This document shows positions 32,549 to 55,894 of a DNA stretch of 64,000 bases, piece by piece. Source of the stretch: Phlebiopsis flavidoalba (lineage: Eukaryota; Basidiomycota; Agaricomycetes; Polyporales; Phanerochaetaceae). Location: NCBI GenBank assembly GCA_035772785.1, contig JAOCPU010000010.1:310001-374000 (forward strand), read 5' to 3'. The notes beneath the pieces were generated by a model that saw only the letters and a list, made by a program, of their open reading frames with translations, was not told the DNA's origin and did not search any database. The stretch's first letter is position 1. Every line of letters starts with the position of its first letter. The position numbers and the translations under genes are program-made.

Positions 32549-32566
32549 CTCCCCCTAGGCGAGATG
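32549..32566 (-). promoter_or_regulatory. copia polypurine tract
   Basis: On the minus strand CCTAGGGGGAG directly precedes the TGTTGAAG start of the 3' LTR, the expected plus-strand primer site of a copia element. Confidence 0.8.
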
Positions 32567-32573
32567 TCCTAAA

Positions 32574-33963: not shown

Positions 33964-36469
33964 CAGCAGGCGTGCATGTAGACGTTTTACAAAAAGGACA
34001 CCCCTGCTGACATCTGTAACTCGCTGTATTGTAAAACAGATGGCCACATCCTAGGAGCATTTTCAAAAAATGGGGTCCCATTTTCAGTGTGTTGCGTAAT
34101 GTAGCCCCATCAAAACAAAACATATTTCAGTTAAGCACTTTTAGCCATATGTTTTGATGGGAAGGAGCTATGTGGCAAAATAGAGTTTCTAACAAAAGCA
34201 ACACCCATGGAATTTGCGGAAAAAAGCGCTCGAAAAAAGCGCCAGGAGCCGGTTCCCATCAAAAAGCTTTTGTGGCACTGATGGTGCCTGCTTCCAGATA
34301 AGATTCTGCTTCCATCAAATTAGATTAGATATTGATGGCTAGGCTCCTGGCATTATATTCCGCTTTTCCTGCCCATTTCTGCTTGCTATTCCTGCCCTCC
34401 CTCTTTCGTTCCCCTCCATTCTTTTGTGTAGGTTACATAGATATACATCTTGTAGTAGCTCAGACCTCAATTTTGTGAGAGGTTCCATGATGTGCAGGGC
34501 CCACAGGAAATAAATACTATTATAATTAATAAAAAAGCGGTCAAATGGCACATGATGGGGTATACCCTGGGGGAATGGGGGCCTATAAATGGGCGGTATG
34601 CTTGCCATTGTATAGGTATACATTGGAGTAATCCCAGAAATGAGGTTTTGAAGCTATCCAAGCACATGGGAACAATAGGGATATATATTATTCTGGGGAA
34701 AAGCGGAAAAAAATAATATTTGGGCAGGTTCCCTTGGGGGTATTATTGGTCTGGGGGTCGTTGTAACTATCTAGGATATTCATATAGCATTGGAATAGTG
34801 TACATACAAACACTGGAACACCAGGGGATTAATACAGCACATGCTACACCCTGATATATACCCCAAAATGGGGGGGGTACCTAGCATAAAAGCGAAAATG
34901 CGCATTTACCCCTGGGCTCTACAGCGGTGGGATACCTTCTGGATGTTGTCTATATACTCTCTGCATGTAGGGGCATGTGTAGAATTAGTTCCGAGGCTTT
35001 AGAACAACTTCCCCAGGTGCTGCAGCCCTTAAACCCAAAAAAAAAGCGTCATTTAGGGTTTAAAAAAGCGAAAACATGTGCACCTATTCACACACACAGG
35101 GCAGTATAATTTATTTCCAGCTGTAGAACACATTCTACATAGTGCCCACACATGCTACAATTTAGTTTACATCAATCCCCCAAGTGGGTTGGAAAGATGT
35201 GCTAGTGTTACAAGAGAATGCATGGGGTTAACATGAATCTCTGTATAATTACACAACTTCCTGTCTGTTTCTATGCTCTGACAGGCTGTACATGTCCCCT
35301 CCTTTCGCAAATTTGGATATAAAGGTTTTCAGGGGTGTAGAATACGATGGAGATATCAGCTAAGCTTCAATTGTACTGGAATACCATGATTTGAGCTTAA
35401 CCCTAAAATCCGAAAATAAGCGCCAGGATAATCGACCAAGATCTGGAGAATCGCACTAGCTACAGGCATCCCATTGCTTCCACAATTTATCTACATGTAC
35501 TAGACACCTATAGAATACTTTTTCACCCGCTCAGAATAGCAGAATATTGATCTGGAGGGTATAGGGGGAGTAGCCATCAATTCCGCAAAAATATATTCTC
35601 AAACATTCATATCATGTTAAAACCTTTGATCTACACAATGAAAATACTTCTAAATAGTGTATCTACATGGGGGAAATGCTCAGAACAATCCCCAATCAAT
35701 AGGAAGCAATGCCCAGACCCCCAGATTTCGAAAAATACCGGAAATTCGAAACAATTCCCAGGATAATGGGAATGTCTCAGATGATGTTTCCTATGTTATG
35801 GGCATACTCAGAGAACATATAGGAGCTTAAACGAGAAGCAGCAAGGCCAGGGGAATGCAGGGGAACCCAGGGTACCCTATTGAAAATCGCGAAAAAAGCG
35901 AAATAAAATCAAATTATATTGGTAGCACCCCTGGCAGGCCAAATATGGGAATTCTGTTCGGTGAGCATGTTCTAAACATACATAGGTACTCAAACTACAA
36001 TACAGCGCCCTAAATAAGCAAGGGGGAAGCTGGGGAGCAACCCCAAATGCAGCCCAAAAGCGGAATTGATGGGAAGCGGATTGCCATCAATTCCCAGCCT
36101 AATTGGGCAAAGGGGCACATTGTGGGTCCACCCACAGGGTCCAGCCGCCTTCTCGCGCCTTTTGGGCGCTTATTTTGCGCGCAAAAGGTCGTGTTAAGAA
36201 AAATTGATGGCATCCTAGCTCATTCATTTCTCCACCAAATTTTGTCATGCTGATATGTTTAGGAAGCCAGAAAGCAGGGCTTCAAAAAAGAAAATTACCA
36301 TTTTTGGAAGTTGTCAGCCTTTTTGTAAAACACCCCCCATTCTAAAAAGGATGTCAGCCCAAGCCTGGGACCCCCTTTTTAAAAGGCTCCTAGGATGGCC
36401 CATCTATTTTTACAATACAGCCAGTTACAGATCTGTGGGTGTTTTGTAAAAGGACTACATGGTCTGGTG
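33964..36469. mobile_element. 2.5-kb non-autonomous TIR transposon inserted in copia pol
   Basis: The left end is CAGCAGGCGTGCATGTAGAC and the right end, read inward, is CACCAGACCATGTAGTCC. Behind the tips, TTTTACAAAA, ATCTGTAACT, GGCTGTATTGTAAAA and CATCCTAGGAGC occur in the same order on both sides, so the imperfect TIR runs about 130 bases. It is flanked by the 5-bp duplication TCCCA. The interior has no meaningful coding capacity and contains about ten AAAAGCG motifs. Both tips are the same as those of the 14.5-kb KDZ element, in the opposite orientation, so it was probably mobilised by that family. Confidence 0.85.
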
Positions 36470-36474
36470 TCCCA

Positions 36475-36952
36475 AGTGCCTTGCGCCCACCAAGCCGTCG
36501 TATTCTTTCTGACATGCTTGGCGCCAACTCGTAGCCTCCTGTGATGACATAGCCTGACGGAACGTCTGCGGCTCGCCGATGATAGCTTCGTGGAACAGCG
36601 GGCGGCGGCAGCGTCATCGTATGGTGGTTGCGTTCCATGCAAAGCCTCCTCGATCTCTTCTTCCGTTGCACCGGATGATACTTGCCCCAGCTCGTGTTAG
36701 GTTTAGGCTGACGATTGGAGCGGCGAAGTAGATGGGTGTGGTTGGGGTTGGTGATCGGCGCAAAGTCTTCGATTGCTGTCTGAGAGGACGGACCTCCGGA
36801 AGGAAGACGCTGCATTGAAGACGCGGTAGGAGACGAGAAGGTGGTAGCACGGCGTGAGGTGGAACGGCCTCGGCCTTTGCCTGACGGCTGGGGCTCTGGC
36901 TTTGGCGTTGTCTTGGGCGTAGGAGTGGGCTTGGGAGGCGCAGGTGTGGGAG
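36475..36952 (-). pseudogene. copia pol fragment between integrase and reverse transcriptase
   Basis: The minus strand encodes the proline-rich linker PTPAPPKPTPTPKTTPKPEP, then LLRRSNRQPKPNTSWGKYHP. In another frame it reads EPQTFRQAMSSQEATSWRQA and QKEYDGLVGA, the standard copia lead-in to GTWELV. It ends exactly at the target duplication of the 2.5-kb element. Its upstream side is cut by the end of the 14.5-kb element at 36,953. Confidence 0.8.
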
Positions 36953-37039
36953 CACCAGACCATGTAGCCGGTATATGATATGGGGCTATGGGCGGAACGC
37001 GCAATAATGCGTTATAGGGCTATCCCTCAGTGAGGGCCC

Positions 37040-37650
37040 CTAGGGTGCTGCCCGTATTCTGTAATACGGGTGCGCGGGGAGAGATGCCTGTACCGCGTCA
37101 TCCCAATATGGCAGGTAATGCTGGCGCCTGCTGCCTGAATGGCTCAATAGCTTCCACATCAATATTCTGGCTCGATATTCGGGCGTATTGACCCTCCTAA
37201 AAGGGTAGGTCGACGCTCTCGTCGGGCCGTTGGCGTCGAGCGGCGGGGGGCGGGTTGCTTGGTGGCGTTTGATGCGCCGCCCCTTTTGGCGCTTGCTCCA
37301 ATTTCGCACCCTCCCCACGCGCTCTTTGCGCCCTCGCCGCCCATTCGCGCGGCGCTCCTCCGCTCGCCGCCTCTCCTCCGCTCGCCGCCCTTGGCGCGCT
37401 CCTGTCCGCTCGCCGCCCCCCGCTCGCGCGCTCCTCCGCTCGCCGCCCCCCCCCGCGCGCTCCCCCCACCGCTCGCCGCCCCCCGCGCACTTCGCCCGCA
37501 CCTTCGCCCTCTTATAGCGCTCGCCCCGCCCGTCGTGCAGCGGGCCGCCCCGTTACCATTCCCCGCTCCTCGCCCGCTTCCACTCGCCGCTGAGCCACGC
37601 CCGCTGGTGTCCAAAGGCATCGGTGCCCAGCCTCATGTAAATCTTCAGCC
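37040..37650. repeat. GC-rich subterminal block, left
   Basis: Dense GCTCGCCGCC repeats at irregular spacing (37,330-37,500), with runs of C. It includes the perfect-arm hairpin CCCGTATT-CTGT-AATACGGG near 37,051. All frames are open by composition only, and I call no protein. It mirrors the GC-rich minisatellite next to the other end of the element. Confidence 0.6.
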
Positions 37651-38091
37651 CCTTCAGTGAGCTTCAAGGGGTGGATGCTTGGGGGCGGCCTTGGATGTAG
37701 CAGACCAGCGCTTCAGCGCGACACCACCCGTTCGTTCGTAGCCTATTCACGCCGTTCGTTTTCTGGTTTCATTCTAATGTAATCACACTACCAGTCGCTG
37801 CCGATGAGGACGCGAGCGGGGGCGTCGGGAACGCGGGGCGCGTGCGGCGCGTGCGGCGCTTGGGCGCGCTTGAGCGCGCTCGGTCGCACGGCGCTCGCCC
37901 CCTTGGAATCCAACCACGGCGCTTTGCTCTTCTCGCTTGCTTGCTCCCACCTTCCTCGACGGCCCCTCTCTCCTCGCCTCTCGCTCCTCTCGCTCTGCTA
38001 GCTCTCTCTCTCTCTCTTTCTCATCACGAACACATTTCGCCGCCGCCGCCGCCGCCGACCCACCGCAGCCGCCGCCGCGTCGCCGCAGGAC

Positions 38092-40640
38092 ATGACGAAG
38101 CCCGGTGGCGAATCCGAAACCGCCCCGGTCCCAAAGGCTGGGCGCGTGGCAAGATCCTCCGGTTCCTCCTATCGCGCAAGAACCTCTGGCTCGAGGCGAC
38201 GACCAACAAGCAGCAGAAGGCGAAAGCTTCGACGCGTTTTTTTACGATGCTCCTGGCCGCCGAATTCATCCAACGCTTCGGCCCCATGGACGACCTCCGC
38301 GTAGACGATGAAGATGACGAGCAAACCCGTTGGACGAGGACGAACCAGACGAAGACAACGAGTTTGGTGAGCCTCCGATTGGGCTTTACTCCGCACCCGG
38401 TGCAGATGGCACGGTCGACGAGCTCGTTGCCGAAAAAACACACGGCGTCGTTCAAGGGAACGCTGTCAGGTTTGTCTTTCACCACCTCAGCTCGCACATT
38501 CAACCGTTTCTCACATGCTCGGCAGAAGCTCGTTTCGTGGTGCAGCCACCACTACAACAAGTACTCGCAAGGCGGTGTCAGACAGGAAGTGCGCCGGCTC
38601 ATCAAATACGTCACGGCCAACGCGCAGGACGTTCACAAGCAGAAGACCCTCAGCTTTTACCAGAAACATCACTACGAGGATCGGCTCAAAGAGAAGGTCA
38701 ACGCCCGATACGAGGAGGCTGTGAAGGCATGGGAACAGGCAGGCTCGGCTGGTAAGAAGCCGCCGTTTCTTCACTACCTGCATGAGGTCGCAGCGGAGAC
38801 ATGGGAGGACGAGACGGACGACTTCAAGAAGTCTGTCATCGAGGCGAACAATGCGGATTACGAAGAACGCCTCAAGGCCGCCGAGGCCGAGGCCCTCGAC
38901 ATCAGCCCGAAGACCGCCCGAAGACTTTGACACAGTGAGTGGCCTGTCGCATTCAGCCGGCTCCATTCACAGCGTGTTCCTAGGAGCCTCAAGAACGCGC
39001 CGGCGATATTCCAAGCATTTTGCGACATCATGGGTGACAGGCTAGGTGCGACAATCTCCGTGCTCATCGCGCTTCCCATCCCCGAGGAAGGGGGCAAGAT
39101 TGGTATGAGAAGGTGAGTGCCCTCCTGATAAGCCCTCTATCATCCTCACACACCACCACAGCTACCACCACGGCAAGACTACGGGATACCGGCAGGAGAA
39201 ATGGCCGAAGACTCAAGAGCACAAGTTTACTGAGATCGAGCAGTCAATGATCCAGTTCGCGTCCCAGGTGTTCTCGAAGGAAGAGTGCGCGCGTGCGTCG
39301 CGCTCTTCCTCAGCCAGCATCGGCAACCGCGCCCACAGCAACACTGCGCCCATCATTGTCCACCCATCCCGCTCTCGCGGGACGCCTACCCCTGCGACGC
39401 CCGCGCCCAGGCCACCTCGTCCTCGCGCCACGCCACCCCACCGCCCAGGCTCAGCATGCCACGTCATCGGCAATGTCTATCACACCTTGTGTCGATACTG
39501 CGCCTAGGGCCCGGCGCGGCACGTTATGCGCTACTACGCCGCGGCGTTAGGTCCTCGGCCTCGTCTACGGCGCGCCCGACACCCCGCGCCAGGATCTGTC
39601 ACGCCCACCGCCCCCCCCTCAGCCGACGCCGAGCGCGGTGGGCTTCCACGCCGTACGCTACCCACCATCACTTTGCCCTCAGCGGTTTCGCCGCGCGCTC
39701 CCCCCCCGACCCTGTCACAATCCACCGTCGATATTGCGCAACGACAAGGCCCCCCCCCGACCAGCCGCGAGCCCTCGCCGCTCCATGTTCGCGGGACGAT
39801 TCCTCGCAAGAACGGCTCCCCTTCGGCGCCCTCGGGACTCCCCAGCGGTCCGACGATCAGTTGCCCTCAAACTGGGCCTGATCCGTCCACTCGTAGGACT
39901 CCCAGGCCTCACGCCACGCCTACGCGTAACACCACCACGACTATCCCTGCTCCCACCCACACTGTCGGTCCCCCGACTATACAAGCATCGACCTCTCCCC
40001 TGCCACGAGGCCTCTCGCCGAAGCGTACCGCATCCTCACTTCTACACTCGGTGAAGGATGGGGTGAGAGCGTGGGAGTCGTTTTGACGTGATCACCTTCC
40101 TTTGCACTACGCAACGATTCGGCCGTCCATAGGCTACCAGGACCCACCCGGCAAACAGCTCAGCGGAGACGGCCGTCCAGCAGCTATCGGCCATCGTGGT
40201 TCAAGGAGAAAGCGCTTACCTCGGGGAGTCACCATCGTCGACATGGGGCATTTTGCCTACCTTCCCAGAGCTGTACGCTTGGTACCGCTTGCTGCAGCCT
40301 GAGGACGCGGACCACTGGGTAAGCAGCGCGTTGCGCTACCTGCAGCCGCATGGATCGACAATTCCGCGATCACAATTGCAGGCCGGGCAAGAACGGCACA
40401 TTTTTTGGTGCTCGTCGCCCCTCAGCTGGGTTTGCCCGTTCAAATTTATAACAACGGCCGTGAGGGCACGAGCTGAAGCCAGAGTGGGACGCCGTCGTTG
40501 ACGACCTGGACTGTGGTACTGAGGGCGAGTTACGATGCGCGCTCTCTACAGACGCCACTGCCGCCGATGTTCCCGCCTCTCCCGCCTCGTTGAAGCGCTC
40601 AGCCGCGCCCTCGGAAGGTCCCCGCAAGCGCCGTAAATAA
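38092..40640 (+). CDS. hypothetical protein, Agaricomycete repeat-associated family
   Basis: Start MTKPGGESETAPVPKAG, then WARGKILRFLLSRKNLWLEA and FYTMLLAAEF-like text (RFFTMLLAAEFIQRFGP), an acidic stretch (DDEDDE), HHYNKYSQGGVRQEVRRLIK, LSFYQKHHYEDRLKEKVNAR and FLHYLHEVAAETWEDETDDF. After an intron come NAPAIFQAFCDIMGDRLGAT, ISVLIALPIPEEGGKIGMRS and KTTGYRQEKWPKTQEHKFTE, then a long P/S/R-rich region and LYAWYRLLQPEDADHWV. The C-terminus is a basic GPRKRRK before the stop at 40,638-40,640. It resembles a multicopy family of unknown function in wood-decay fungi, with an N-terminal FL(L/E)S segment, a (V/L)xFYxKxxY segment and a nuclear-looking tail. Several indels break the frame. It lies inside the KDZ element, so it is probably cargo. 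Confidence 0.6.
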
Positions 40641-40876
40641 TATTTTTTTTGTTTTTTTTTTTGTACATTTAAATACACAATCCGTGCCAATTGGGCCATT
40701 ATTAAGCGTCGGTGCCGCGTGTGACCAGTATTTTACACTCCGATAACCTAGAATTGGGGTCGTCGGCGCTACCTGCGCAGGTCAGGACCAACCACCACCA
40801 TCGCCCTCTTTTCCGCCCCTCTCCTCTTCCCTCTCCCCTTCTCCCTCGCCCCCTCGGTGCATGCCTGCGGTCAGAG

Positions 40877-43415
40877 ATGCCGCTCCGTAACGGCCGCGAT
40901 CAGCGAGCGCGGTGCAAGACGGAATCAGAGTCTGAAGACGAACGTCTTTGTTGACTTTGTTGGTCGGACTCGTCGAACGTCTCCGACGCGTCACCACTCG
41001 GTTTGTCTATTCTACTACTTTTTATTTCGCGCTTTCACTTACACTGCTTGTAGATGCGTCTGCTGGAACCTCGCCGGATCGCTCGACGACGACGAACGTT
41101 GGAATTCATTGGGCGGACACAGGGGTACAGACGGCCTGCGTTGGTGTCCGGTACGGCGTACAAGTGGACTTCCGGGACTACATTCCTTCACGACGTTCCC
41201 TCTCTCACTCCGTCCTGACTCCGCATCTAACGTAATAGTAGTGCAGTCCCGGGACCAGATGCCGCCGTGGACCGCCAGCGCACTCCCGCCCCCTCTATCT
41301 ATCTCCCCATCAACACACTTCCACTGTGCCTCCGTCACCCCCACCGCCCAGCCCGCCACCCTTGTCCTCGCACGTCTTTCGAAAGGCAAGGAGAGGGCCG
41401 ACGGTATATACTTCGATGAAGTCGCATCAATCCTCTCTTCGACTGCGGCCGTCGTCCTCGAAAGCCCCCGCCACGAAGTCCTCGACGAGGCAATCCTCGA
41501 CCCACGCATTCTACAACCCCAGAGCCGTCTTCCTCGCAGCAGTCCAGCAGTCCGCCGCACCATCTGGGTTCCACCGACGGACACTTCCACCTCTTCACGC
41601 TCGACCTCAACTCGTCCGGCACTGCGGCTTCGACCTCGGTTCGGGAGGTCTTCGGAACTGCAGCGTCGTCTACTCGTCGAATCCGCTCAACAGCCCCCCA
41701 GCGATCAGAACTCGCGACGCCAGGTTGTTTCATCCCTCCTGCCCAGCTGACATGGCATGCGATTGCCGACAGGCGCAAAACTCCCAGGCCTTGCCCACCT
41801 GCGCCGTCTCAGACGACAGAATCCTCGTCGCCGCCCAAGCCACGGGATGCACTGCGATAGCAACAACACCCGCCCGGGTGCTTCTTTCATCACACGCGCC
41901 ACGTCATCGGCGCACACAGCCTTTGCAGGACACGAGCGGCGCGCGGCGGCCATCGGTCCCGCCGATAGTCAGGAAGTTAGAGGGTCTGCCCCACCGCCGC
42001 GCCCTCCCCAAACCCGTGCAGGATCTAGTCCATTGTCCAACGGAATCAGATGCGCGGGTGCCAAGGTAAGAGCCGCTGCTGCCCCTATATATATGAGGCC
42101 CACTCATCCTCCAACAACCAGCTCACCTCGCCCGACCGACCGTCGACGATACCTGTCCATTCCCGCGCCCCCTGCTGTGATTTCGACGGCTGCTGCGGGC
42201 GCAGGGTCTCGTCGCCGCCAGGCAACACACCGCCGTTGGGACAGGCCCCTCCGCCACTTGCGTCGCCGCCCTGCGCGCTGTGCAGTGCCGGCTCGCGTGT
42301 CGACCACAAGAACGGAACCACGCCATCAGCTCCTCCGCCGCCGCCAGCCGGTAGCTCCGCCCCGCAGGTCGCCACTGCCGGGTTGCCAGCAAGTCTTGCG
42401 CCAACGCAGGCAGGCCCTGCGCCGTCGCAGGTCGACAACCCTTTGCCCCACACCATCCCCTCCTCCTCTCAGGTAAGGTTATCTTCTCCACAGAAGCATG
42501 TCACTCATCACAAGCACAGCCGCGTCAACCACCACCTCCAATAGAGACTCCTCCGCCACCCTACCCCGGGCCTCTGCCTCCACAAGATTATCCGCCTCCG
42601 CAACCAGGCCCCTCGTCACGACCTGGGCCCGTCGCAAGCCGGCCCGTCGTCGCGACCTGACCCATCGCCGCAACCCAGTTCGTCGTCGCAGCCCAGTTCG
42701 TCGTCGCAGCCCGGTTCGTCGCAACCGCCGCGGGTCATGAACATGACGATACCCTCCAGCCATCCCCGGAGAGCCAATTCGATGGATGGCGTGCTTTTGG
42801 GGGCGTCAGCCAGGTGTGCACGCGATGCCCGAGGCCCTTCTTTTTGTTCGTGGTATCAAGTCGGCATCTTTTGTTGTGTGTCAGCAGCGTGAGGACGCCC
42901 GTCGCTGCGTTTGAATATGTTCGTGGACAGGACAATCTTCGTGTTATCACTGACGGCTCTATGCGGCGCATCATCGAACCTCGTCCGCCGCTCGCAACAA
43001 TACCTTTGACGAGACGGGAGTTTCAATCCCAGGCTCGTCCCTCTCGCGGCGCCGTCGTTATTTATCGCGGCCTTCAAACTGGTTCCTTCAGTAGTTGGTA
43101 AGTGGTACCCCTGCCTTTCTTTATGTACGGTGCTGACTGTTGTAAGGCTCGACGCATTCCAGTATGTCGTAGGCGTGCCGAACGCGTTTTTCCGAGGCTA
43201 TACGAACATTGACACTGCGCGGGCAGCCTACTATAACATTTGGAGAGAGGAACTCACCGCCCCCCCAGAATTATACGACAACTTTTTCTTGCTCCGTAGT
43301 TATTTCGTCGCGTTGCTCTCGATATATGTCTCTGTTGTTCTGTTGCCTCTCTTTTTCTTGGGTTGCAATACACGTGTTTCGTTAATTTTTGTTCGCGCGA
43401 GCTGCCAACCCTAAC
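40877..43415 (+). CDS. protein with ribonuclease-H N-terminal-like (viroplasmin-type) domain
   Basis: The recognisable part is near the 3' end: GAVVIYRGLQTGSFSSW (43,040-43,098), an intron of about 45 bases, then LDAFQYVVGVPNAFFRGYTN and IDTARAAYYNIWREEL (43,148-43,255). This is the compact beta-beta-alpha domain found at the N-terminus of eukaryotic RNase HI and in pararetroviral viroplasmin; it binds RNA-DNA hybrids in RNase HI. The upstream 2 kb is proline/serine-rich with open frames shifting repeatedly, including GKERADGIYFDEVASILSST (41,389-41,450), and a PSQPSS-type tandem at 42,660-42,720. I see no RNase H catalytic domain. Start and exon structure are uncertain, and it may be two genes. 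Confidence 0.5.
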
Positions 43416-45061
43416 CTCAAGCCACCCTTTTTTTTGGAAAGTACATGCACTGAAAAGGTAACAGCCTGGTGCTCGCATTGAGGCAGCGAGGTCGTTATCG
43501 CTGTATGCGCTATGTTTACCGAGTCTAATCACAGGTTATGGATGCCTAGCATTCTGTGTAGCACATTGTGAAAGACAAGTAGCATATAGATACTTCTAAG
43601 GTGGCTCTGGAGGTTGTGCAGTGGTGAGTACTGTGCCGCCACTTGACTATAATCTCTACACAGATTAGAAGTGTGTGCACCCACTTTCTACACTACTCGT
43701 GTTATCTTCTTACTCAACAAATGCCATAGTATCACTGGCAAAGACTCACGCTGTACGCTACGATGTATGCGCTTGCGGTCTGCGAAGCATTACAACACTC
43801 GTACTTGCCGTTCGCATTCAATGTCACGGCACAGCCGACCGTTCGACACGCATACATATCACGCACCACTTGCAATCGCTTTACTCTGCAACAGAAACAC
43901 GTACTGATTAACACAATCGACATGGGAACTCAAGCCTCCAATCTAGCAGACCTTTCGAATGCCGCACGGTACTACAGTTCAGTAATGTAAGCACGAACAA
44001 ATACCGCAAGAAAGCGTTGTAGCTATGGAGCACTAACGCGTTACGATTTTTTCTACATAGGCAGCGTATCGTCTCAGCATTCTTGCCCACCAACATCCAC
44101 TCGAGTGTTTGCGATACCTAGCTTTCGTTACGTGCATTTTGTTTGTCTCGCGCTGGGTTCACTTCGTCAGGCCGTGGCTAATCGTGAATTGCACTAGGTA
44201 TACAGTCCCACACATGTATCGACTGGATACTCGCGTAGTCGTGTGACGACATTGCTATAGTGTGAGTATTGAACGCAGCGCTGCAATACCTTGCACTGAG
44301 TCTGCGATTCAATGCACAAGCGACGCGAACGCGCCTGGACTGCCTTGCGTTCATAACCTACGAACGCGAATCGTAAACACATATATAAAGAGTAAATACT
44401 AGTATTGTATTACCTGTGTAATAGTGTACCGAGCACGGATACGGATACATCTGAGGAGGCCGCAAGACTACGTGCCGACGACCGTACCCAACGCGCGAGC
44501 GCTGGGCGCAGACTTCACCGCGACTTTCACCACGACCACGACCACACAGCTCCGGCCACAACCTCCACAACGCCCCCAGAAGCCCTTCGCTACCCCGAGC
44601 TGCGTGAGTGTCTCTTCTGCCGTACTTTCTTATTCTTTTTCGGGCTGCTTTTTTTTTGCGGGGCATGTTGTCGGTCGCTAGAATGGTGGGCTGCGTTGCG
44701 CTGGACCGAACTACGCGTCCTACGACAAACAGCGTACCATTCGACGCGTAGAAAGCAGATGCCAGGCCTTACTACGCAAACCCACACGCATAAGACTGCG
44801 CTGAATCGAACAGCGTGTTCTACGCTAGTCTTGGCCGCTGGTGCGCCGAACGGGGATGGCAGTTCTGTTTCCTTTCTTGCTTTCGCCATTTCGTTTGCTC
44901 TTTCATGCTGCCACAGACGGCCTGGCTTGGCTACTGAATCGAACAACGTGTTCTATAGCTGAGCTACGCCTGAGCTGGTAGTATGGCTGGCACCTTTAGT
45001 TTTTTTTTCAACGTTTCCCCCGCTTTTGTTTTAGAGCCTTAACTAATCAGCTTCATCCCAT
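43416..45061. other. spacer with a possible first exon of the TET/JBP gene
   Basis: 43,416-44,400 shows only short frames and no motif. At 44,424-44,605 a plus-strand frame with RRPQDYVPTTVPNARALGAD ends at a GTGAGT donor and could be an upstream exon of the dioxygenase gene. This is suggested by position and composition only. Confidence 0.3.
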
Positions 45062-46835
45062 AGACCAACATGCGAAGCGAAGCACGCGCAGTGGCCTGAC
45101 GTTCTCGCCATATGGAATTCGTGCCGAAGCTGCAAGCCAGACAAGAAAGTAGAGGCCCACCCGAACATAGCCGGCCACGTCATCAAGGCCGTAGACGTCG
45201 ACTTCAACCAGCTGCTATCTGACGCGTTGGAGATTGAGCATAGTCGGGACATGGAAGATGCTGATGACGCGGAAGGTCACGATTTAGTCTACACCCCGCC
45301 GGCCCCTCGCCGTTGACTAGCCCGCCGACTTCTCGACCGGGGACGCCCACACTCACACCGTTGACCTCTCGCTGTCACCGTCTCCTGCACCCATTGCCTG
45401 CAAAGAACCAGCAGCAAAAACAAGTAAACAGTGCCCGGCCAGCCGAACCCAAGGGTAAGGCGAGCGATGCACCGTCGAAGCCCAGCCACCCCCCCCAAAG
45501 AAGCCTCCACCACGGATGGAGGACGGAGTCTCACCTGAATCACAAGAAACGCGGAGAGCGTACGCACGGCGAAAGAAGGCTCGCCTGGCAAAAAAGACTC
45601 TGTGACAAAGGACCCGGCAAAGCTCAAGATCCGCTCCTCCATATCCAAGAAGTCCCGCGACGTGAACTGTCTCAAGACGAACTTCAGCACGGCCCAGCCT
45701 GTCGTGGGCGAAGGGCGCATGGATCGGCCTCCGCCAGCCCGTGATTGCGAACATACCAACCCTCGAGGAGGTCACGGAAGAAGGCCTCGAAGAGTATGAT
45801 TGGAACGGATAGGGTGGTGAGTGGCTGCACAACGTGATTGATTGACATGCACTTAACTTTTGCTTAGTGATCCTACCGGTCATCACTACAAAGGACGGTA
45901 GAATAGTTGCGGCACTCCCTGGCCGCCCGTCGGCGATGATTCCTGGGATCAGAACACCGAGGGAGTACTGGCGGCTCTCAAAACGCGCAGAACGGAAGCT
46001 TCGGTTTGGGAAGAAGCGGGACCGCCGCGGTAGGTTCCTCACCATTGCGAGCGGTGCATTTGTCATACGGCGGCGGCCAGACTTGTGCGTCGTTGCCTGC
46101 CCTTTCAATTCGAGCTCATGCTGACGTATCCGGGACAGCGTCCAGGGAACTTGAACGTCAGCGTACATAACAAAAAGGTGCTCGCCGAACTATAGCGGTG
46201 ACCCCTGCGTACGTACCGGCTTATTCGTTGGGGGAATGGTGCGTGTTGACCAGATGCCTCCGTCATGTGTTCACGGCTGACATATGTTCAGCAATGCTTG
46301 CATATTACTTCCCGCTTTTTGTGAACGTGGAGTACGCTGACACGATGTCTAGCCTACAGATCAACAAGCAAACCGTTACCTTTGCCGCAACCACCCCGAG
46401 AGAGTATCTACGCCGCCGCCTCCGTGAACTTTTCGCGACACACGGTCTGCTTCGAGCACAGCGGACTTTGGGGTAACAATGGCGAACGGCATCTGTCCGA
46501 TATGGTGGGGTGCGCGGGTACGTTCGATTGGCGTCGCGGCGGGCACCTCATTCTCCGACAACTTGGCCTCGTTATACGCTTGGCCCCTCCCAGGCTCTCT
46601 GATCTGCATCCCTTCGGCAACCTTAAAGCATGTAACAACCTCAATAGCCCCAGGCCGAGACTCGCTACTCCTTCACTCAGTACTCAGCGGGCGGCATCTC
46701 TTTCGCTGGGTGCATTATGGACACCAGACTTGGAAGGGGGACTTGTCTGTTAAGAACAAAACCAAGGCCAAGGCAGAGGAATGGCAGGGCGTGATACCAA
46801 ATGGAAACAGGCTGCTAAGATGTTTTCTACAGTAG
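45062..46835 (+). CDS. TET/JBP family 2-oxoglutarate/Fe(II) dioxygenase
   Basis: A nucleic-acid base dioxygenase of the TET/JBP family; relatives oxidise 5-methylcytosine or thymine. The N-terminal part reads EAKHAQWPDVLAIWNSCRSC, AHPNIAGHVIKAVDVDFNQL and SDALEIEH, the conserved Agaricomycete lead-in. It is followed by an S/P/K-rich linker (45,290-45,620). The double-stranded beta-helix part includes VTEEGLEEYDWNG, TTKDGRIVAALPGRPS, SYGGGQT (46,064-46,085) and SVNFSRHTVCFEHS (46,415-46,450), followed by the iron-binding aspartate that completes HxD once a single extra G is discounted. Then come GTFDWRRGGHLILRQLGLV, PGSLICIPSATLKH with the distal histidine near 46,627, the 2OG-binding PGRDS arginine and LFRWVHYGHQTWKG. 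The stop is at 46,833-46,835. The frame is broken at least five times, mostly by single bases. Its place beside the KDZ transposase inside shared TIRs marks it as transposon cargo. Confidence 0.8.
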
Positions 46836-47049
46836 AGAGCCTTCATGGTGACGCAATAGGCATATCACAGGATTAGTAGATGAATGAATGACTCAGCCCT
46901 CCTTGCATAAGTCCCAGAAAGAGTGCCCGTGATCTTGTTGAAAACAACAAAGTGTATCAAAACAAACACAAATCTCTCACACTCAGAGAGACGCTGACCC
47001 TCCCTGGTATCCCTAACCTCTCACTTGCCTCGACTAAACCGGCAGCCTC

Positions 47050-50000
47050 ATGGCGAAAGACCAGGAAGAAACGGAAACGCGACCCTCCCGAGCTATACGA
47101 GCCACCAAGCAGCAGTCCGCCAACATGTCATCACGGCAAGCAGCGAGTGCGTGAAGTTTTGACAGACGCAAGATTTGTGCGATTAACCGTACAAGAGCCC
47201 GTTGCGACGCCGCCATTCACCCCCCCTTGGCCTTTCCTCGGGGACCTTATCCATACAGCGATAGCTGCTTCGACAACGCCAGCGACGCCGGATCCCGTCT
47301 CCGGCATCGACACTTCTCAAGATTCTGACGCTGTCGATGGTCTGATTGTTCGCACGACGAACAAGGCCAAACGCTATCTGAACTCTGTAAGCTTCTCTAT
47401 TTCTAATCGAGTCACAAGGAACTTACGGGGATCAAGTTTCCGGTGCGTCGTCTCTGTTCTTTCACGGCGGCTGTGCACTGACGCAGTGTCCAGGATCGTC
47501 GCCAGACGTTCATGTTGATCGTGCGCGAATGGCGACATCTTCAAGCCCTTAAACGTGCAGGACGAGCCTTCGATCCTTCGGGTGTGGCTGGGACATCACA
47601 AGGGGAGCTTGCGGTCGAGTGCAGAGCATGCCCACATCCAGGTATCAACCTGCCTGACGGTTGGGACAAGGTTCCGGAGAGCGAATCGTGAGTACCGTCA
47701 CGACATCTGTTACGAGTGCATGCTAATCTTTGATAGATACATTTATAGACAGGTTATATCAACGGATTGCAACTTCCGGGTCAAGAGCCGCCACCCGGCC
47801 CGACGACTAAGCCGGACGTTTGCTTGTCGCCAGGATGGTCTTACATGGTCGAACACAAAGAATATGCAGAGCACTACGTGAAGTTCGCAGAAGACGACGA
47901 GGTGAGTCAACATCTGGATGGCCTCAACAGCCCATGTGCTCACTGTTTCCTTAGATCTCAACTTGCGTAGACCATCGCGCGCAATAGGCCAAGCCAACCT
48001 CAAGGTCCGCAAGGGGCTGAACGCGACAGGCGTCGTGGCTACATCCTGCGAGCACGAATGTTTTCGCAAGAACGGAGTCGGCGACCTCCAGCGTGGCGAG
48101 AGGTACGTGCTCATGATACAAGGATGCCAATCTCACTAACGCGCTCGCTTTAGATACAGCAACGTCGACTATGTATTCCTCTCGTCTCTCGTCGGCATCT
48201 CGGTATTGTACATCCTCGCAACATACGACATTGCGTGTCAATACTTCACCAATTTCTGGTCGCGCATGCCCGCTCTCTCCCCGAACGTCTCCATCTAAAG
48301 ATTCCGAAGGCTCGAGTGACGGTCAAGGTTCCCAAGGCCCATCTCGAGGTTCACCAGGAGTCCTGTCATGGACGGTTCTCTCCCTCAACTTCACCATAGG
48401 GGGCTGCAGGATTGATGGAGAGGGGGTTGAGCGACTTTGGTCGTGGTTGAACAAAGCCGCGCCCAGCGTGAAGGAGATGGGAATTTCGGCGCGGCGAGAG
48501 GTGATAGATGACTTCTGTGGGTATGCAGCATGGCAGAAAATGCTTTCGCTTGGTGAGTTGATCGCCTGTGGGGATTGCTCAACCATGACTAACCTTTCCC
48601 AGTTCATCAGCTCCTCCGCCTTCTCGTCGAGGCTATGAAAGAAGCCAACGTACACCTCGACGAGTTCATGGCGTTCGATCAACATCTGCGCCAACGATTC
48701 GGGAGCACGCTCGACAACTGGGAGAAGAGCATAGACGACTGGGAGAAGAACCCCTCTCTTCCATGCCCGTACCTACCAAGCATCGAACGTGAGTTGTGTT
48801 TACTCGCCCTCGCCCAACGCCATTAGCTGACTTCAGGATATAGGTATCACTGTCAACCAAGTGAAACAAGCCATGATGGAAGATGAAGAGCGCGATCGTA
48901 CCCGCGGGCATGCTGCTGCTGCAATTGCACAGGAGAAGACCCCGCTAGGGTTCATTGTTTATGGCTTGGAGGTTGAGGCTTCCCAGTAAGTCTTAGTACA
49001 GTGTCATTAGCGTAACATAACTCAACCAATCTCGACAGAATCGCCCTGCGTGAAGATGTCGCAGCCAATCCTGTAGTGGCCGCGCTGAACAGCGTTGCTC
49101 GCATCGAACGGCGGCGAGCAATTCGCAAGAAAATACAAGAGCTTCGTAAGCTTCAGGGCATCCATACGCCGCATGCCCTCGCGCACATCCGCACCTATGC
49201 CAGCAACCACTCGACCGAAGATCACAGCGCAGACGAACCGGAGAATGCCCCCCTCTACCTCCCATCTCACCCTGCCTTCAACAGTTCAAGGCATGTCGTC
49301 ATCCCCAAATCCATCATCGAGATGGAGGTACGGCTCCGCGAGGCGCAAGCCGCCGAAGCTCTCGACGATCTACGCCGACAGCTGCGCACGCGGACCTTCG
49401 CGAACAAGTATAAGATCCAACAAATCACGGGCCAGCGGATGAACACACGCGCACGAGCCAATGGCAGCAGACAATCGACAGGCGTGTCGGGGCTTGCGCC
49501 AGCCGTTATCGCGTCGCGCGAGTGGCTCTCCTCGCTCTCAAGGGCCCCGGCGACTGGGAGAATAGGTTCAAGGTACTCCAGGACGATGACATCCGCGCCA
49601 TCAATGATCGCGCCATGTCCGTGCAAGAGAAGGAAGACCGGCGAGCCCTGCGCATCGCTGCTGGACTCCCCGTTGACGGAGTCTTTGGAGAAGGCATGCA
49701 GGACGGCGTACAGATAGGGGAGGGTCGTCGAACTCTGTCCTGGATATGGCTCGACGACGGAGGCGAGGAGGGCGACGACGAGAGCCCACGTGTACAGGAA
49801 GGTAAGTAAAGGTCTGTCTACCACTACACGGACTGCGTTAACCTTCTCCCCTAGTCCTTCGCATTGAGTGGGCTAAGTCGAGGGCCCGAAAAGACCGGTG
49901 GATAGAGCAAGTCAATCGAGTGTACCACCAAATGGATCACGCCGTGCGGTATTGCCACTGGAGAGCCCGGTGGTGGGAGACGCAGTCTAAACGGCGACCC

Positions 50001-50300
50001 GACACTCCCAGCGACTTACAAGAAGGGCTTCGGGCCTACGCGAGTGAGCATGCCGCGCAGGAGTATGCACTCGCACAACGATGGACACTCGCCTGGGAGC
50101 CTGCAAGAGCCAAGGCTCAAGACTTCCTGCGGATGATTGCGAGCGGCGGCGCCCTGTCCGAAGTACCTCAAGCCGAACCTTCGTCCTCGTCGACGCCCGG
50201 CCCTTCAAACTCTTCGACAAGGCCTCCGGCATTCGTCGACATCACAATCCAGGATGAGGACGAAGAGGATGATGTTGGCCTCGAAGGAGACCTTGAATAG
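47050..50300 (+). CDS. KDZ transposase lacking its CxC2 zinc domain
   Basis: DDE-type transposase of the Kyakuja-Dileera-Zisupton class. The start at 47,050 reads MAKTRKKRKR if one extra A is discounted, then DPPELYEPPSSSPPTCHHGK and VDGLIVRTTNKAKRYLNS. After an intron the protein resumes at FMLIVREWRHLQALKRAGRA, FDPSGVAGTSQGELAVECRA, CPHPGINLPDGWDKVPES, CLSPGWSYMVEHKEYAEHYV, ATSCEHECFRKNGVGDLQRG and then the core: YSNVDYVFLSSLVGISVLYI (first D), ATYDIACQYFTNFWSRMPAL (second D) and DGEGVERLWSWLNKAAPSVK (catalytic E, 48,415-48,470). A helical C-terminal region follows, with IERRRAIRKKIQELRKLQGI, ALKGPGDWENRFKVLQDDDI, GEGRRTLSWIWLDDGG and VRYCHWRARWWETQ. The stop is at 50,298-50,300. About 250 residues expected between KRYLNS and MLIVREW, including the CxC2 zinc module, are absent: only about 100 bases lie between. 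There are about seven introns. Confidence 0.85.
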
Positions 50301-50499
50301 TATGGTGAGATTCTATCTTTATGTACAACCAATGAGCTGACAAGGTCTTCAAGGTCAGCTAACACAACGCGGCCGTAGAGCACAGCGACGAGCCCCCGGA
50401 GCAGACAACCTCAACGACCACGCAGGGCTTGACGGCGGTGGCTGGCCAGGGCACAGCGAAGAGCCCTCAACATGCAGCGTAGGGCGACGAGGTCAAATG

Positions 50500-51170
50500 T
50501 ACGGCGAGAACCATGCAGGGCACGCCGAGCAGAGCCCGGGGCACGACGACGAGCCCGGAACACGCATCAACGACCGCACAGGACGCAACGATGAGCCCCG
50601 AACGCACGACGGCGAGTGCCCAGGGCACGACGAGGGGCCCCGAACGCTCGTCGACGACCGGCTAGGACGCGACGAAGCACGACGGCGAGGGCCCAGGGCA
50701 CGACGAGGAGCCACGAACGTACCCCGTCGACCGGCCAGGACGCAACAACGAGCCCTGAACGCGCGTCGACGACCGGCCAGGATGCGACAAGGAGCCACGA
50801 ACGCACGACGAGCAGAGCCCGGGGCACGACGACGAGCCACGAACACGCGTCGACGACCGGCCAGGACGCGACATGGAGCCCCGAACGCGCGTCGGCGAGG
50901 GCTCAGGGCGCGACGAGCAGACACGAACGCACGACGGCGAGGGCCCAGGACGCGACGAGGAGCCACAAACGCACGACGAGCAGCCACGAATGCGCGTCGA
51001 CGACCGGCCAGGACGCAACGAGAAGCCCCGAACGCGCGTCGACGAGGGCCCAGGGCGCGACGAGGAGCCACGAACGCACGACGACGAGGGCCCAGGGCAC
51101 TACGAGGAGCCCCGAACGCGCGTCGGCGAGGGCTCAGGGCGCGGCCCGCCCCGCCCGCCCCCAGCGCATC
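50500..51170. repeat. 39-bp GC-rich minisatellite
   Basis: About 17 tandem units of roughly 39 bases. Each is built from a CGAACGC(G/A)CG block, a spacer GTCGACGA or ACGGCGA, then either GGGCCCAGGGCGCGACGAGG or CCGGCCAGGACGCGACGAGG, and AGCC. Because the unit is a multiple of three and has no stop codon, both strands and most frames stay open. I do not call a protein. It lies between the KDZ gene and the right TIR. Confidence 0.85.
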
Positions 51171-51276
51171 CGCCGCAGTGCGCTGCGCCCGCCCGCCTCC
51201 CGCTCGTAGACAGTGCCGCCACATGTGTACCTACCCATTATAGATAGAAGAATATAATATATTAATTGTTGATGCC

Positions 51277-51368
51277 TGTAGCATAAGCGTCCCGCATTTT
51301 AGATTGCCGGATAACGCTGCTTTTGCGGTGGGATCCCTTATTCTAAAATGCATGGGACGCCTGCTACA
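51277..51368. repeat. foldback with 27-base arms near right TIR
   Basis: TGTAGCATAAGCGTCCCGCA (then TTTTAGA) at 51,277-51,303 pairs with TCTAAAATGCATGGGACGCC (then TGCTACA) at 51,342-51,368 around a 38-base loop. It sits about 75 bases inside the right end of the KDZ element. Confidence 0.8.
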
Positions 51369-51444
51369 ACGAAGCCCGAAAACGCATTATGGGCCGTTTA
51401 GGCCAAAGGCCTATAATATATATAGGCTACATGCACGCCTGTTG

Positions 51445-51585
51445 AACTTGAGAAAAGAGGCGAGCGTGGAGGTCGAGGCGTAGTTGTTGCGAAGTGTCTC
51501 CCAGATCTGGCGAGCCGACTGCGACTCGTCCTCGAGGAGGTGTAGCAGCGAGGGGTCGATGGTGGAGATGAAGACGAATTTGACC
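51445..51585 (-). pseudogene. copia gag, downstream fragment
   Basis: The minus strand reads VKFVFISTIDPSLLHLLEDE then SQSARQIWETLRNNYASTST and LASFLKF, the gag (UBN2-type) signature of copia elements. It ends where the 14.5-kb element begins at 51,444 and is separated from the gag N-terminus by the 3.4-kb element. Confidence 0.85.
51578..51585. repeat. 8-bp target duplication, left copy
   Basis: ATTTGACC here and at 55,001-55,008. Removing one copy and the insert restores the copia gag reading DNSVKFVFIST on the minus strand. Confidence 0.9.
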
Positions 51586-52492
51586 ACATCTAGGCAACTG
51601 TTTAATGCATTAGACTCCAGCCCCATCTGTAATGTGCAATGCATTAATCTCCAGGTAGTGTTCAATGCATTATTTGCTGCTTTCCACCTGCGAGCTGGGT
51701 TTGAATATGCTGCAGCAGCATCACGGGTACCTCACCCAAAGCGGTAAGATATTGATAACAGCCAGACTGCCACTGTTATCGGGCTGTTATCGGGCGTCTG
51801 ATCTACTGTCCGCCGTCCGCTGCCCGCGGCGCTTTACCGACGGCTGCCTAATATGGTACACCCCCCGCCGCGTCGATTGAATTCGCTTTTTCTCGGGCTT
51901 TTTCGTGATTTTTTAGGTATAAATCATTGATTCATTGACTAAACTACTCTACATGTACATAAAAAACACTATATATATATGTGCTACGGGGGTTTAATCG
52001 GAGCCGGCGGCGGCGGGTACCGGGCGCCGGTGGCGGCGACGACGGCAGCGGCGACGGCGGTGGCGACGGGGCTGGGCGATGGTATGGCGTTGACGTTAGA
52101 GAGGCGGCGCGCGCACACCAGCGCGTGGGCGAGGCGAGGCGGCATGCGTCGTGTGCGTATTGGGGGTGGCCAGCGGCTCGTGCGGTCGTCGTGGGGCGCC
52201 GCCGAGCGCACGCGCGGCGGCGGTCATTGGGCACCAATGGACCCCCGGCTTCCATCCGTTCGGCGCACAAAACGATGTGCGTCTGGAGGACGCGGAGCGG
52301 GAGGGACGGTGGAGACGGGGGGTCGCGCAGGGGCGCGGGGATCCAGCACCCTGCTGGGAGCGCGCACCGTTCGATGGCGCCGTGTTCGCGACGGGTCCTG
52401 CGTCGCTTGTGACGCAGGACAGAGACGGTGGGGACGGCGTGGGGCCAGTGAGGGCCGAGTGCGAGGGGAGTGTGGAGGTCGGATAGGGGGTA

Positions 52493-52523
<31 letters not shown>

Positions 52524-52535
52524 GGGGGGGGGGGG
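52493..52535 (+). repeat. poly-G tract (30 G, T, 12 G)
   Basis: A run of 30 guanines, one T and 12 more guanines. It can form G-quadruplexes and is a likely site of sequencing length error. Confidence 0.95.
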
Positions 52536-52757
52536 CTGGGGGCGCGCCGCCGCACGCTCTGGACATAGGCGTACATGTCTGTACGCTCTACATGGCGATG
52601 CTCGACCATAATGCGTCGCTTCTGACGCAGTATGGTGGCGGCGGCGGTGGTGGTGGGACTGGCAGGACCGGGGGTGGGTGGTCGAGGTGATGTCTGCGCT
52701 GGGGGACGCAGGTGCGGTGAGTACGGGGGGCGGTGTGTGAGTAGCGCACCTTCGTGA

Positions 52758-52787
52758 CGTGGAGGACGATCCGGATCGTCCTCCACG
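52758..52787. repeat. 30-bp perfect palindrome
   Basis: The half-site CGTGGAGGACGATCC is followed directly by its exact complement GGATCGTCCTCCACG, with no loop. As a result the two strands encode the same short peptide here. Confidence 0.95.
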
Positions 52788-55000
52788 CCGTTCCGCGGTG
52801 GGTAATGTGGTCAGCGGCAGGGTCACCAGCCATGGACGGCCACGCACCTTCGTCCCAAGAGCCCGCAGGCATACAAGACGAGCCAGGACGTTGGAGCATG
52901 CACCTAGTGCACTGCTCCAACGCTTTCCGATGGTTTTGGTGGCTGCGGGGTTCGTTGTTCGTGTTGCGAGTGTCGAGGTGGCCGAGCGCGGAGTTGGGCA
53001 GCGCGGATCGATCGACGACCGGGCGATTCGGGGTGGGGTTTAAGCGAGAGGAAGCACTCCAGGGCCCTCCTATGAAGGACCCTGGGCATCGAGGGTAGAG
53101 GATACAGACCGCCGTTCTCGCGAACGACGGTCTTGGGTGGTGGTTTGGGACAAGCAGGACTGAGCGCTTTGACCCCCTGCGGTGAAATCGGGCGACTTCT
53201 GGGTCGCCTCGGGCAGCCTCGGGCGACCACAGACAGTGCTCTCCCGCGCGAACGGTTGCTCGCGTAGCTTTGGCGTGTCTCGGGATGTGTCGAGGGCAAT
53301 ATTAGCTTGTTGCTGGTAAGTGGTTCCCACGCATTTCAGGAAAACATTATTTTGACCCTACCGTTCCCTCAACTTCTCTACCTTTCGACTAGGCATCGAC
53401 CTCCATCCACCACACTGTCAGCTAAATGCAACGGAAGGTATGTGCTACCGTTATTTAGTACGTAGAACCCAATTCTGAACTCCGTTTATTATTTCAGCCG
53501 CTAGACGTACGCGTACAGCGCAACTCGACGCGGCCCATGGGTAATGGGCAGCCCTATTAGAACCGGTACGTACCCCATTCATTGTGTCACGTAGGCTTAC
53601 TCGTTTCCCTTGAAACATTTTCTACATCATCTGTACATACTAACGAATTCATAGCCATGTTTTATGTCCTACTGGCGATCAAAAAACATTCCTGGAGTGT
53701 GGGCACCGTATGTGCTTACCACCAGGTGAGTACCTCACTTATTCTTTACTTCACCGGTTTCTATTGCCATCGGATGGCATGCAAAAGCTCTCTACATATC
53801 TAGAGAGTATGTGCATGCCATCCGATCAGCAACCTGCGGCCGCATTCTGCAATCCGGCTCACCTTCTCCTCGACGTTCGGTTGGGCGCCTATTCCCACGA
53901 ATGTCGTTTTATTGCTCCATGCTCTCTCAGCGATGAGTACATGAATTATACACTCGCTTCTGACTTTAACTAGCCCCTGAATGTATTTGCTGCCCTCAGA
54001 AGTATGATTTCAATGCTTGGCTCATATATTGTAATCATTTCTTTGATCTCTTCCCAGGGCAGTGCTTCCCCCCTTGAAAATCACTCTGTGCACAAGGAAA
54101 GTATATGAGTAGACTGTAGAGCAATCCATGTATCACATTATGGCTGTAGTATGCAATACATTTACTATCAGTACTGCCTGAGTAGCTGTATTACATCTTG
54201 AAGACATTCTGGCATTAAAACACTCATGCCTTGAGTATTTCCATCATCTGGTACCATAATACTGGTCTCTGTATTGCTTTGTATGTATGTAGCTATGTTA
54301 CCGGTGCTGCAGAGCCATTTCCCCGCACTTCTTTCTCGAATATATATCCGAATTTATTAGTAATTTTCGTTTTAATGACTGGAAGCAGGTGAATTGATGC
54401 CATAATGATGAGGATAATATGTGGACACATTGAAAGACTCGTAAACTCATCACATTATGTATCTACAGCCATGGGATTGGACTGCACAAAGCACATGAAT
54501 ATATATATATATATATGTATTTATGCGAGATTTATGGCGAATTTTGGTATAGGCTTATTACAATCACCTATAGCCTTCATAGTAGCCTAATCACAATCGC
54601 ATTTGAGTTCATATATAATGTACATGCTATCTAGTAGAAGGGAGCCCAGAATGGGGCACCCAACCCGGTCCATGCAGGGCGCAGGGCGGGAGCGTGCCCA
54701 ATTTGGAAGTGTGCGGCCGTACAAACAAAGACAAAGAGTGCGCCGCAGTGTGCGCGCAGTGAGCGCCGGCAGGCGGCGCACGCGAGTACACCATCGGATG
54801 TGATGGCGACACATTAGGGTTCACAGATAACAGACCAGAGAGCTTGATCTAATCTGTGCTCCCAGAATGGTGTTGTACATCAACAGCATTCAAACCCAGA
54901 CGCGCCTGCAAAAGCCTCACCGAGCTGGCTGGAGTTTAATGCATTGCACAAGTACAGCCGGCTGGCAGCAGCTAATGCATTAAACACTTGCCTAGGGCTC

Positions 55001-55298
55001 ATTTGACCGAGTTGTCTACCGATAGCCAGTCGTCGTAGTCCGCGTCATTTGGCCCGGGGGGCGTGACTTTGGAGTCAATGATGGCGGCTGACTTGGTGGC
55101 GATGAGGTAGTGACGGATGAGCAGGGCCCAGACCTTGTAGTTTGAAGAGCCTTTCAGCTTGTCGATCTGGTCCAGCTTCATGCTCGGTGCCGAAGACGTC
55201 GTTTTGGCAAAGGCCGAAGTGGAGATGGACGAAGGGTTGGCAGCCGTGGTGCGGCGGCCAGAGACGGAGCCACCAGTGGGGGACGGTGGGCGAGACAT
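55001..55298 (-). pseudogene. copia gag, N-terminal fragment
   Basis: Start at the ATG complement of 55,296-55,298, MSRPPSPTGGSVSGRRTTAA, then KLDQIDKLKGSSNYKVWALL and IRHYLIATKSAAIIDSKVTP to DYDDWLSVDNSV. The K-L-x-G-S-x-N-Y-x-x-W pattern is the hallmark of copia gag. It is interrupted at the 8-bp duplication by the 3.4-kb element. Confidence 0.9.
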
Positions 55299-55366
55299 TG
55301 TGTGTGCGGATGTGCGCGGGGAGCAGGTTTGCGAGTGGGGAACGACGTGTCGGTCAGAGCCACTCG

Positions 55367-55378
55367 GGGCTCATAACC
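55367..55378 (-). promoter_or_regulatory. copia primer-binding site (initiator tRNA-Met half)
   Basis: On the element strand GGTTATGAGCCC lies 12 bases inside the 5' LTR. It is complementary to the anticodon arm of initiator tRNA-Met (GGGCTCATAACC), the half-tRNA primer used by copia-type elements. Confidence 0.7.
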
Positions 55379-55390
55379 TATTTGCGTCAC

Positions 55391-55894
55391 TGAGCGAGGC
55401 GCAGGGTCCGAGACTCTCGTCTGGGACTGGCAGAGCAGCAAAAAACTAACTCTGTGGCCTGTAGGACGCAGTGGTAACGCGCGGTCTGACGACGTAGTCG
55501 TAAGGCCCAATCTAGCACACAACGAAGTAAGTGTCTATGCTCGAGGGGAACGATGAGCGATATATTATATACCTAGCACACAACGAAGTAAGTGCTAGGG
55601 AGCGCGTAAGCATACATGCATAACACAAGCGTAAAGTCGGAACTTACTCTATGCTCGAGGGAACGATGAGCGATAGAGTAAGGGAAGCGAAACTGATCCC
55701 TATATACTGGAGCCCTGCGCACAGACCAGGCTTACATAACGTGGGAAAGTGACTCGCGAACGGGGGTAGAGTCCATGTGAGCAGGCAAGATAAACTACGT
55801 ACTAAGTCCGCACAAGAGATAAGCGACCATAAGAGACATACAAGATGACGAAAGGAAAACATAAGTGCCAGGCAACGAGCCACTAACTTCAACA
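55391..55894 (-). repeat. copia 5' LTR
   Basis: A 504-base LTR with TG...CA ends (TGAGCGAGGC to CTTCAACA on the plus strand). It is nearly identical to the LTR at 32,054-32,548. It interrupts the gypsy reverse transcriptase after the residues KRGLFE. Confidence 0.92.

Follow-up and report, generated by a model that had tools for sequence, protein, structure and literature searches.

A KDZ transposon family of Phlebiopsis flavidoalba in which TET/JBP and two further genes form a four-gene unit

KDZ transposases, CxC cysteine clusters and TET/JBP genes were reportedly found to be associated in Agaricomycetes by Iyer et al. in 2014. The locus described here raises the question of whether still other genes can belong to the same mobile unit. 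It lies in a stretch of 64,000 nucleotides of Phlebiopsis flavidoalba (the window), which is contig C10 (JAOCPU010000010.1), positions 310001-374000, in a genome assembly of 36.3 Mb; all other copies mentioned are named by their contigs in the same genome. A prediction made from the letters of this stretch (the original prediction) proposed a KDZ transposon whose inverted ends enclose four genes, with two left-hand genes travelling as cargo beside TET/JBP (TET) and the transposase. These two are a gene of unknown family (gene 1) and one with a region like the N-terminal domain of RNase H1 (RNase-H-N). We consider it highly probable that the window element is a defective multi-gene KDZ cut-and-paste transposon, a copy of a four-gene unit; the Copia sequence missing beside it was most likely lost by recombination between copies.

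The four genes do stand between inverted arms. These arms (36961-37021 and 51373-51433) are 61 nt long and 75% complementary, the longest among 110 inverted pairs in a search of 36000-52500. The element spans 36953-51441 (14,489 bp); its left terminus is CACCAGACC, at the base originally proposed, and its right terminus reads ...CACGCCTG. The right end had been put at 51444, which is 3 bp too long: we place it at 51441 because relatives with target duplications stop at the equivalent base. A copy of the Copia retrotransposon on C19 matches the right flank of the window from exactly 51442 (100% identity, 144 bp), and therefore agrees independently with 51441. The longer end CAACAGG was rejected, its CAA being flank by both comparisons. 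BLAST found the left end at 3 further places in the genome and the right end at 6. When searched as patterns, the left end with 0-1 mismatch gave 50 genome matches compared to 11 for a reversed-pattern control, some of the one-mismatch matches surely being chance, and the right end with at most one mismatch gave 19 compared to 1. Rfam at the gathering score gave no match in the window.

To see how such ends behave across the genome we compared 14 pairs of left and right ends, picked by their end motifs. The 7-bp flanks are identical in 9 of the 14 (C21a, C21b, C22, C85, C87, C112, C102, C1 and C40) and match at 6 of 7 bases in a nested element on C2. They differ in the other four, with 3/7 bases in common in C71, 2/7 in C121, 4/7 in a small element of the window and 2/7 in the large one. 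The common termini are CACCAG...CGCCTG, except that C21b ends in CGTCTG, and the perfect duplications adjoining them in those nine motif-picked pairs confirm the CA..TG termini. The family makes 7-bp target site duplications; the large window copy has none. On C21 (515007-521648) two small KDZ elements stand head to head with some 66 bp between their left ends, and each is bounded by a perfect 7-bp duplication of its own (AAACCGG and GTTCGAG).

The copy that carries most of the argument is C40:294257-309423, an element of 15,167 bp that shares the end motifs, is flanked on each side by the 7-mer GCGTCGT and encloses all four genes. Gene 1 is on its minus strand; the similarity to RNase-H-N falls in two stretches (E 3e-4 and 1e-4), and a TET domain (E 4e-24) and a KDZ domain (PF18758, E 1.4e-19) are also present. 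Here the KDZ transposase, TET/JBP, the RNase-H-N protein and gene 1 are one transposition unit, and the possibility of unrelated genes nested between chance ends is rejected by the duplication together with the four genes. Whether full-length copies with the same genes and a target duplication exist elsewhere was the check proposed with the original prediction; C40 is such a copy, with the reservation that its gene 1 is turned round relative to the window, as it also is in C2. On C49, gene 1, RNase-H-N (PF01693, E 2.6e-10), TET and KDZ with CxC2 follow each other in window order on one strand. This element measures about 20.5 kb between its termini; the contig stops one base inside the left terminus, so that the left flank is beyond it, and the right terminus at 275411 is that one of four CACGCCTG words whose surroundings look, by eye, like a mirror image of the left end. 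C18 also holds all four genes. It runs colinear to the window all the way from the subterminal region on the left to the right end, with a DNA identity of 68-72% in the three matches above 300 bp. C2 has its left terminus at 1289 and all four genes, colinear with C40 (67-71% identity in five matches above 400 bp). The terminal motifs were thus found with KDZ and TET at both ends of C40 and C49, at the right end of C18 and at the left end of C2.

The same association is seen when the genes are counted without regard to ends. Gene 1 occurs at six loci (C10, C18, C49, C74, C2 and C40), of which five are four-gene elements; the sixth copy, on C74, is 1.2 kb from the contig start. Among these six we found no gene-1 copy away from KDZ or TET, the C74 copy lying too near its contig start to count either way. 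Terminal sequences that never accompany KDZ or TET elsewhere, or left-hand genes known only from outside such termini, would have spoken against the prediction; within this genome neither was the case. TET was found at 14 places in the genome (17 matches) and KDZ at 15 (32 matches), counts which, like that of gene 1, are lower bounds as the searches were six-frame and exon-wise. At six loci (C10, C18, C49, C40, C2 and C55) TET and KDZ share a strand and are no more than about 5 kb apart; both extra genes are present at five of these six, the other eight TET places being outside this comparison. C52 was not counted as a pair: its TET and KDZ share a strand, but some 9 kb separate them and their order is reversed. 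The cargo proposal holds at five of the six loci; at C55 neither the extra genes nor matching ends were detected.

These counts bear on whether the KDZ element includes the two left-hand genes at all, since these could be host genes or belong to another element caught by nesting. C55, with TET and KDZ and no left-hand genes detected, would fit such an origin, and so would the missing duplication of the window copy, whose two ends possibly come from different insertions. We nevertheless regard it as very improbable, given that the same four genes lie inside both ends of C40, with its perfect duplication, and of C49, lie with one end in C18 and C2, and include a gene 1 that, C74 aside, was not located apart from KDZ and TET.

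Of the window genes only the transposase was identified directly, from two pieces over the Pfam cut-off (PF18758, E 1.1e-6 and 1.1e-9), which place it in the KDZ superfamily. TET, RNase-H-N and gene 1 were identified through their colinear relatives; the window pieces of these three gave no Pfam match over the cut-off, the only hits being at chance level (DUF7455, E 0.098; TubZ_C_3, E 0.24). The C49 transposase carries the CxC2 zinc cluster (PF18803, E 2.8e-16), the CxC feature of the superfamily, and a C18 piece from the CxC region had no Pfam match. The C49 TET copy is open across the domain and has the HxD...H...R pattern. Among 67 TET relatives, some of them named Agaricomycetes, the facial triad is conserved at H53 (66/67), D55 (66/67) and H107 (67/67), and R118 in 64/67. 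All named relatives of the C49 copy are Agaricomycetes, the best being from Phlebiopsis gigantea (68%). PF12851 covers some TET relatives and is below the cut-off for the query itself (E 0.042); PF20515 was tried as a TET model and dropped, as it had no genome match and some relatives carry PF12851 instead. A search of the PDB with the C49 TET gave only a chance-level match (E 0.26). In contrast to the 67 relatives that the same database yielded for TET, gene 1 had none outside the genome at E <= 0.001 (1653 and 4359 candidates), a result limited by its fast evolution and, in the 1653-candidate search, by a query that crosses a frame change, by eye. The middle part of gene 1 is predicted to be helical at low confidence, and the predicted structure of one piece (mean predicted local distance difference test score, pLDDT, of 60) is helical and too weak for a fold search. 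By eye, gene 1 of both subfamilies has a short basic C-terminal tail that looks like a nuclear localisation signal (window 40590-40640, also C40). A second match to the RNase H1 N-terminal domain (Cauli_VI), at C9:640087-640164 (E 5.3e-6), may belong to a host RNase H1 gene.

Table 1. Coordinates of the features of the window discussed in the text
Feature	Position in window	Strand	Evidence or remark
Left terminal inverted repeat, begins CACCAGACCATGTAGCC	36953..37021	+	Inverted arm; same end at other loci
Gene 1, unknown family	38090..40640 (outer limits estimated)	+	Translation, six loci, C18 colinearity
RNase H1 N-terminal (Cauli_VI)-like region	42753..43282, approximate	+	Colinear with C18; C49, C40 and C2 copies
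TET/JBP dioxygenase gene	44528..46858, approximate; catalytic region ~46288-46858	+	Colinear relatives
KDZ transposase gene	46907..50297; PF18758 pieces 47744-48524	+	Pfam and C18 colinearity
G+C-rich low-complexity repeat tract, transposase gene to right end	50341..51240	+	
Right terminal inverted repeat, ends ...CTACATGCACGCCTG	51373..51441	+	Inverted arm, right-pattern search, end pairs, Copia flank
Copia retrotransposon, KDZ elements nested inside	32054..55896	-	Long terminal repeats ~500 bp, 97.4% identical
2.5-kb non-autonomous KDZ element with a non-coding core and ends like those of C49	33967..36469	-	Same Copia

Selection on the four genes was estimated as the ratio of nonsynonymous to synonymous substitution rates (dN/dS) by NG86 counts, between the window and C18 unless stated, in segments that were picked for good alignment and are short (14-237 codons), near-saturated and biased to conserved parts. 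The KDZ core gave 0.04 (237 codons, dS 1.7; taken singly, two of the five blocks are saturated) and the KDZ C-terminal block 0.11 (120 codons). With saturated dS set to 3.0 for the segments of the other three genes, we obtained 0.15 (54 codons) and 0.24 (62 codons) for gene 1, 0.20 (33 codons) and 0.12 (22 codons) for RNase-H-N, and 0.04 (14 codons) and 0.06 (21 codons) for TET; C49 and C18 gave 0.14 (90 codons) and 0.07 (70 codons) for TET. Low ratios of this kind point to constraint without being exact estimates, and suggest that all four genes work. The comparison of RNase-H-N between C49 and C40 stands apart at 0.61 (38 codons). That value would suit the two genes being passengers that move with the element and have no role in its life cycle, as would the orientation of gene 1, which varies between subfamilies, and its fast evolution (four other copies are 24-37% identical to the window row in our alignment A1). 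We think that passengers are unlikely, because both genes are kept at five of the six TET and KDZ loci and have a dN/dS of 0.12-0.24 in the window/C18 segments.

The window copy itself is dead as assembled. Compared to C18 its KDZ core has three frame changes (near 47978, 48275 and 48381) and the transposase gene is short of some 0.45 kb, at ~47390 to 47490, into which the stretch that aligns with the CxC region falls by eye. The TET gene shifts frame between the H and the D of the HxD motif, and gene 1 also shifts frame, by eye. The single-base shifts may include assembly error, although a 476-aa frame nearby, with the Copia reverse transcriptase, stays open. The long terminal repeats of the surrounding Copia are nearly identical, and therefore the KDZ element arrived in a Copia that had itself inserted fairly recently. 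Between its matches to the two flanks, the C19 copy holds 2,068 bp of Copia that are missing from the window, with a zinc knuckle, a protease and an integrase by eye. The loss of this sequence between its flanks would explain why the window copy has no duplication. With both termini intact, the loss would most likely have come about by recombination between two copies in one Copia. Aberrant transposition with an adjacent deletion is known for other DNA transposons, and a deletion made by the transposase could have removed the duplication and the ~2,068 bp here; both termini do look exact while the flanking Copia is missing. This is possible, if on the doubtful side in our judgment, since recombination of two copies in the same orientation fits the same facts without special chemistry. 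The same Copia has been the landing site for at least three DNA elements. One is a further insertion at 51586-55000 with an 8-bp flanking repeat, ATTTGACC, and inverted ends of 68 nt (84%).

TET-bearing KDZ elements are already known, and the new part appears to be the two further genes travelling with the element. The exact ends and the duplication-bounded four-gene unit would go beyond the KDZ-TET/JBP association of Iyer et al. Among the titles and abstracts listed by our literature searches, none joins KDZ with such extra genes, the full text of Iyer et al. being outside this check. The closest known system is found among the TET-positive Kyakuja transposons of Agaricomycotina, including Polyporales, which like the window family have a KDZ transposase with TET/JBP, 7-bp duplications and 5'-CA..TG-3' termini (Kojima 2025, PMC12730594). 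On this basis the window family is most likely of the Kyakuja lineage, a placement made by duplications and CA..TG ends. It differs in its imperfect 61-nt inverted ends, while two Laccaria bicolor Kyakuja families have no terminal inverted repeats (TIRs), a property of those two families that is not given as a Kyakuja definition in the parts of the paper available to us. It also adds two genes, whereas the available parts of the paper mention no accessory gene for Kyakuja, and the word RNase is absent from its main text (PMC12730594). KDZ1 of Cryptococcus neoformans is alike in its KDZ core, zinc-cluster domain, size of about 11 kb and insertion as a unit; it differs in its 241-bp TIRs, 8-bp duplications and CxC1, and TET is not mentioned in the available portion of the source (PMC12810828). 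In Pleurotus ostreatus, KDZ elements have CxC2 ahead of the transposase like C49 (PMC7641404), and in Marasmius oreades TIR motifs have been characterised for KDZ in a study of KDZ and Plavaka (PMC8290104); accessory genes are not described in the available portion of either. Zisupton and Dileera make 8-bp target duplications, unlike the 7 bp seen here.

Several points weigh against reading the family as a working four-gene transposon of the Kyakuja lineage. One concerns autonomy: among the copies seen, none has its four genes shown intact, the window copy having broken genes and C40 having stop codons or shifted frames in gene 1, TET and KDZ. The left terminus of C18 was not found, nor was the right end of C2 in the stretches examined, and the large window element lacks a target duplication, as do the C71 and C121 pairs. 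To these must be added the inverted gene 1 of C40 and C2, the absences at C55, the RNase-H-N ratio of 0.61 and the choice of segments behind the lower ratios, the lack of TIRs in the L. bicolor families and a placement made by duplications and termini. We have weighed them in giving the four-gene reading the confidence stated at the outset.

The exact ends also brought out a set of small non-autonomous elements. A 601-base piece taken from one non-coding core has matches that overlap every one of the 12 small end pairs (2.4-4.1 kb). Of 49 candidate matches to this piece, 40 were scored; these include the window's own and several partial ones, and 37 of the other 39 are 84-96% identical. The core is about 2 kb long and A+T-rich (43-44% G+C in four aligned copies). 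Its interior is 86-98% identical among those four, except for one C102 stretch at 76-78%, and the terminal 80-300 bp differ among them: the ends of C121, C102 and C1 resemble the window type, more closely in some than in others, and the match of the small window element is to the right end of C49. Differing termini on like interiors mean that at least two distinct KDZ end types carry one core, and terminal modules seem, from these alignments, to have been exchanged between copies. The small window element has a duplication, TCCCA(C)AG / TCCCAAG, with a one-base insertion, and its empty site is present in C19. An inversion between the two window KDZ elements, suggested by a TGTGGGA shared near two of the ends, was dropped in view of that empty site. 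Elsewhere in the window, an ABC transporter ATPase domain at 17346-18143 (PF00005, E 5e-22) is probably part of a host gene.

How the four proteins might work together can be sketched from family-level roles, in which TET counters silencing and RNase-H-N binds hybrids or duplexes. The transposase with its CxC2 zinc cluster would bind the ends and move the element, and TET would oxidise 5-methylcytosine on the element, letting it escape silencing. Binding or expression may be assisted by gene 1, whose basic tail hints at a nuclear location, and by the RNase-H-N protein as a binder of hybrids or duplex RNA. A bolder version has a coordinated four-protein system for anti-silencing and transposition, with RNase-H-N binding RNA:DNA hybrids or small-RNA duplexes, gene 1 binding the ends or subterminal repeats and TET being brought to its own DNA in this way, and with the 2-kb non-coding module living as a parasite on two or more such systems through the exchange of terminal modules between KDZ subfamilies. 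We offer it as speculation to which we assign a low probability.

The TET/JBP enzymes of fungal transposons are thought to fight silencing, which raises the question of how the enzyme is aimed at the element. A unit bounded by a target duplication and holding two extra genes provides candidates for aiming TET and makes this question testable. With the exact ends known, both autonomous and non-autonomous copies can be counted; the ends have already revealed a non-coding passenger, present in many copies, that borrows its termini from at least two subfamilies.

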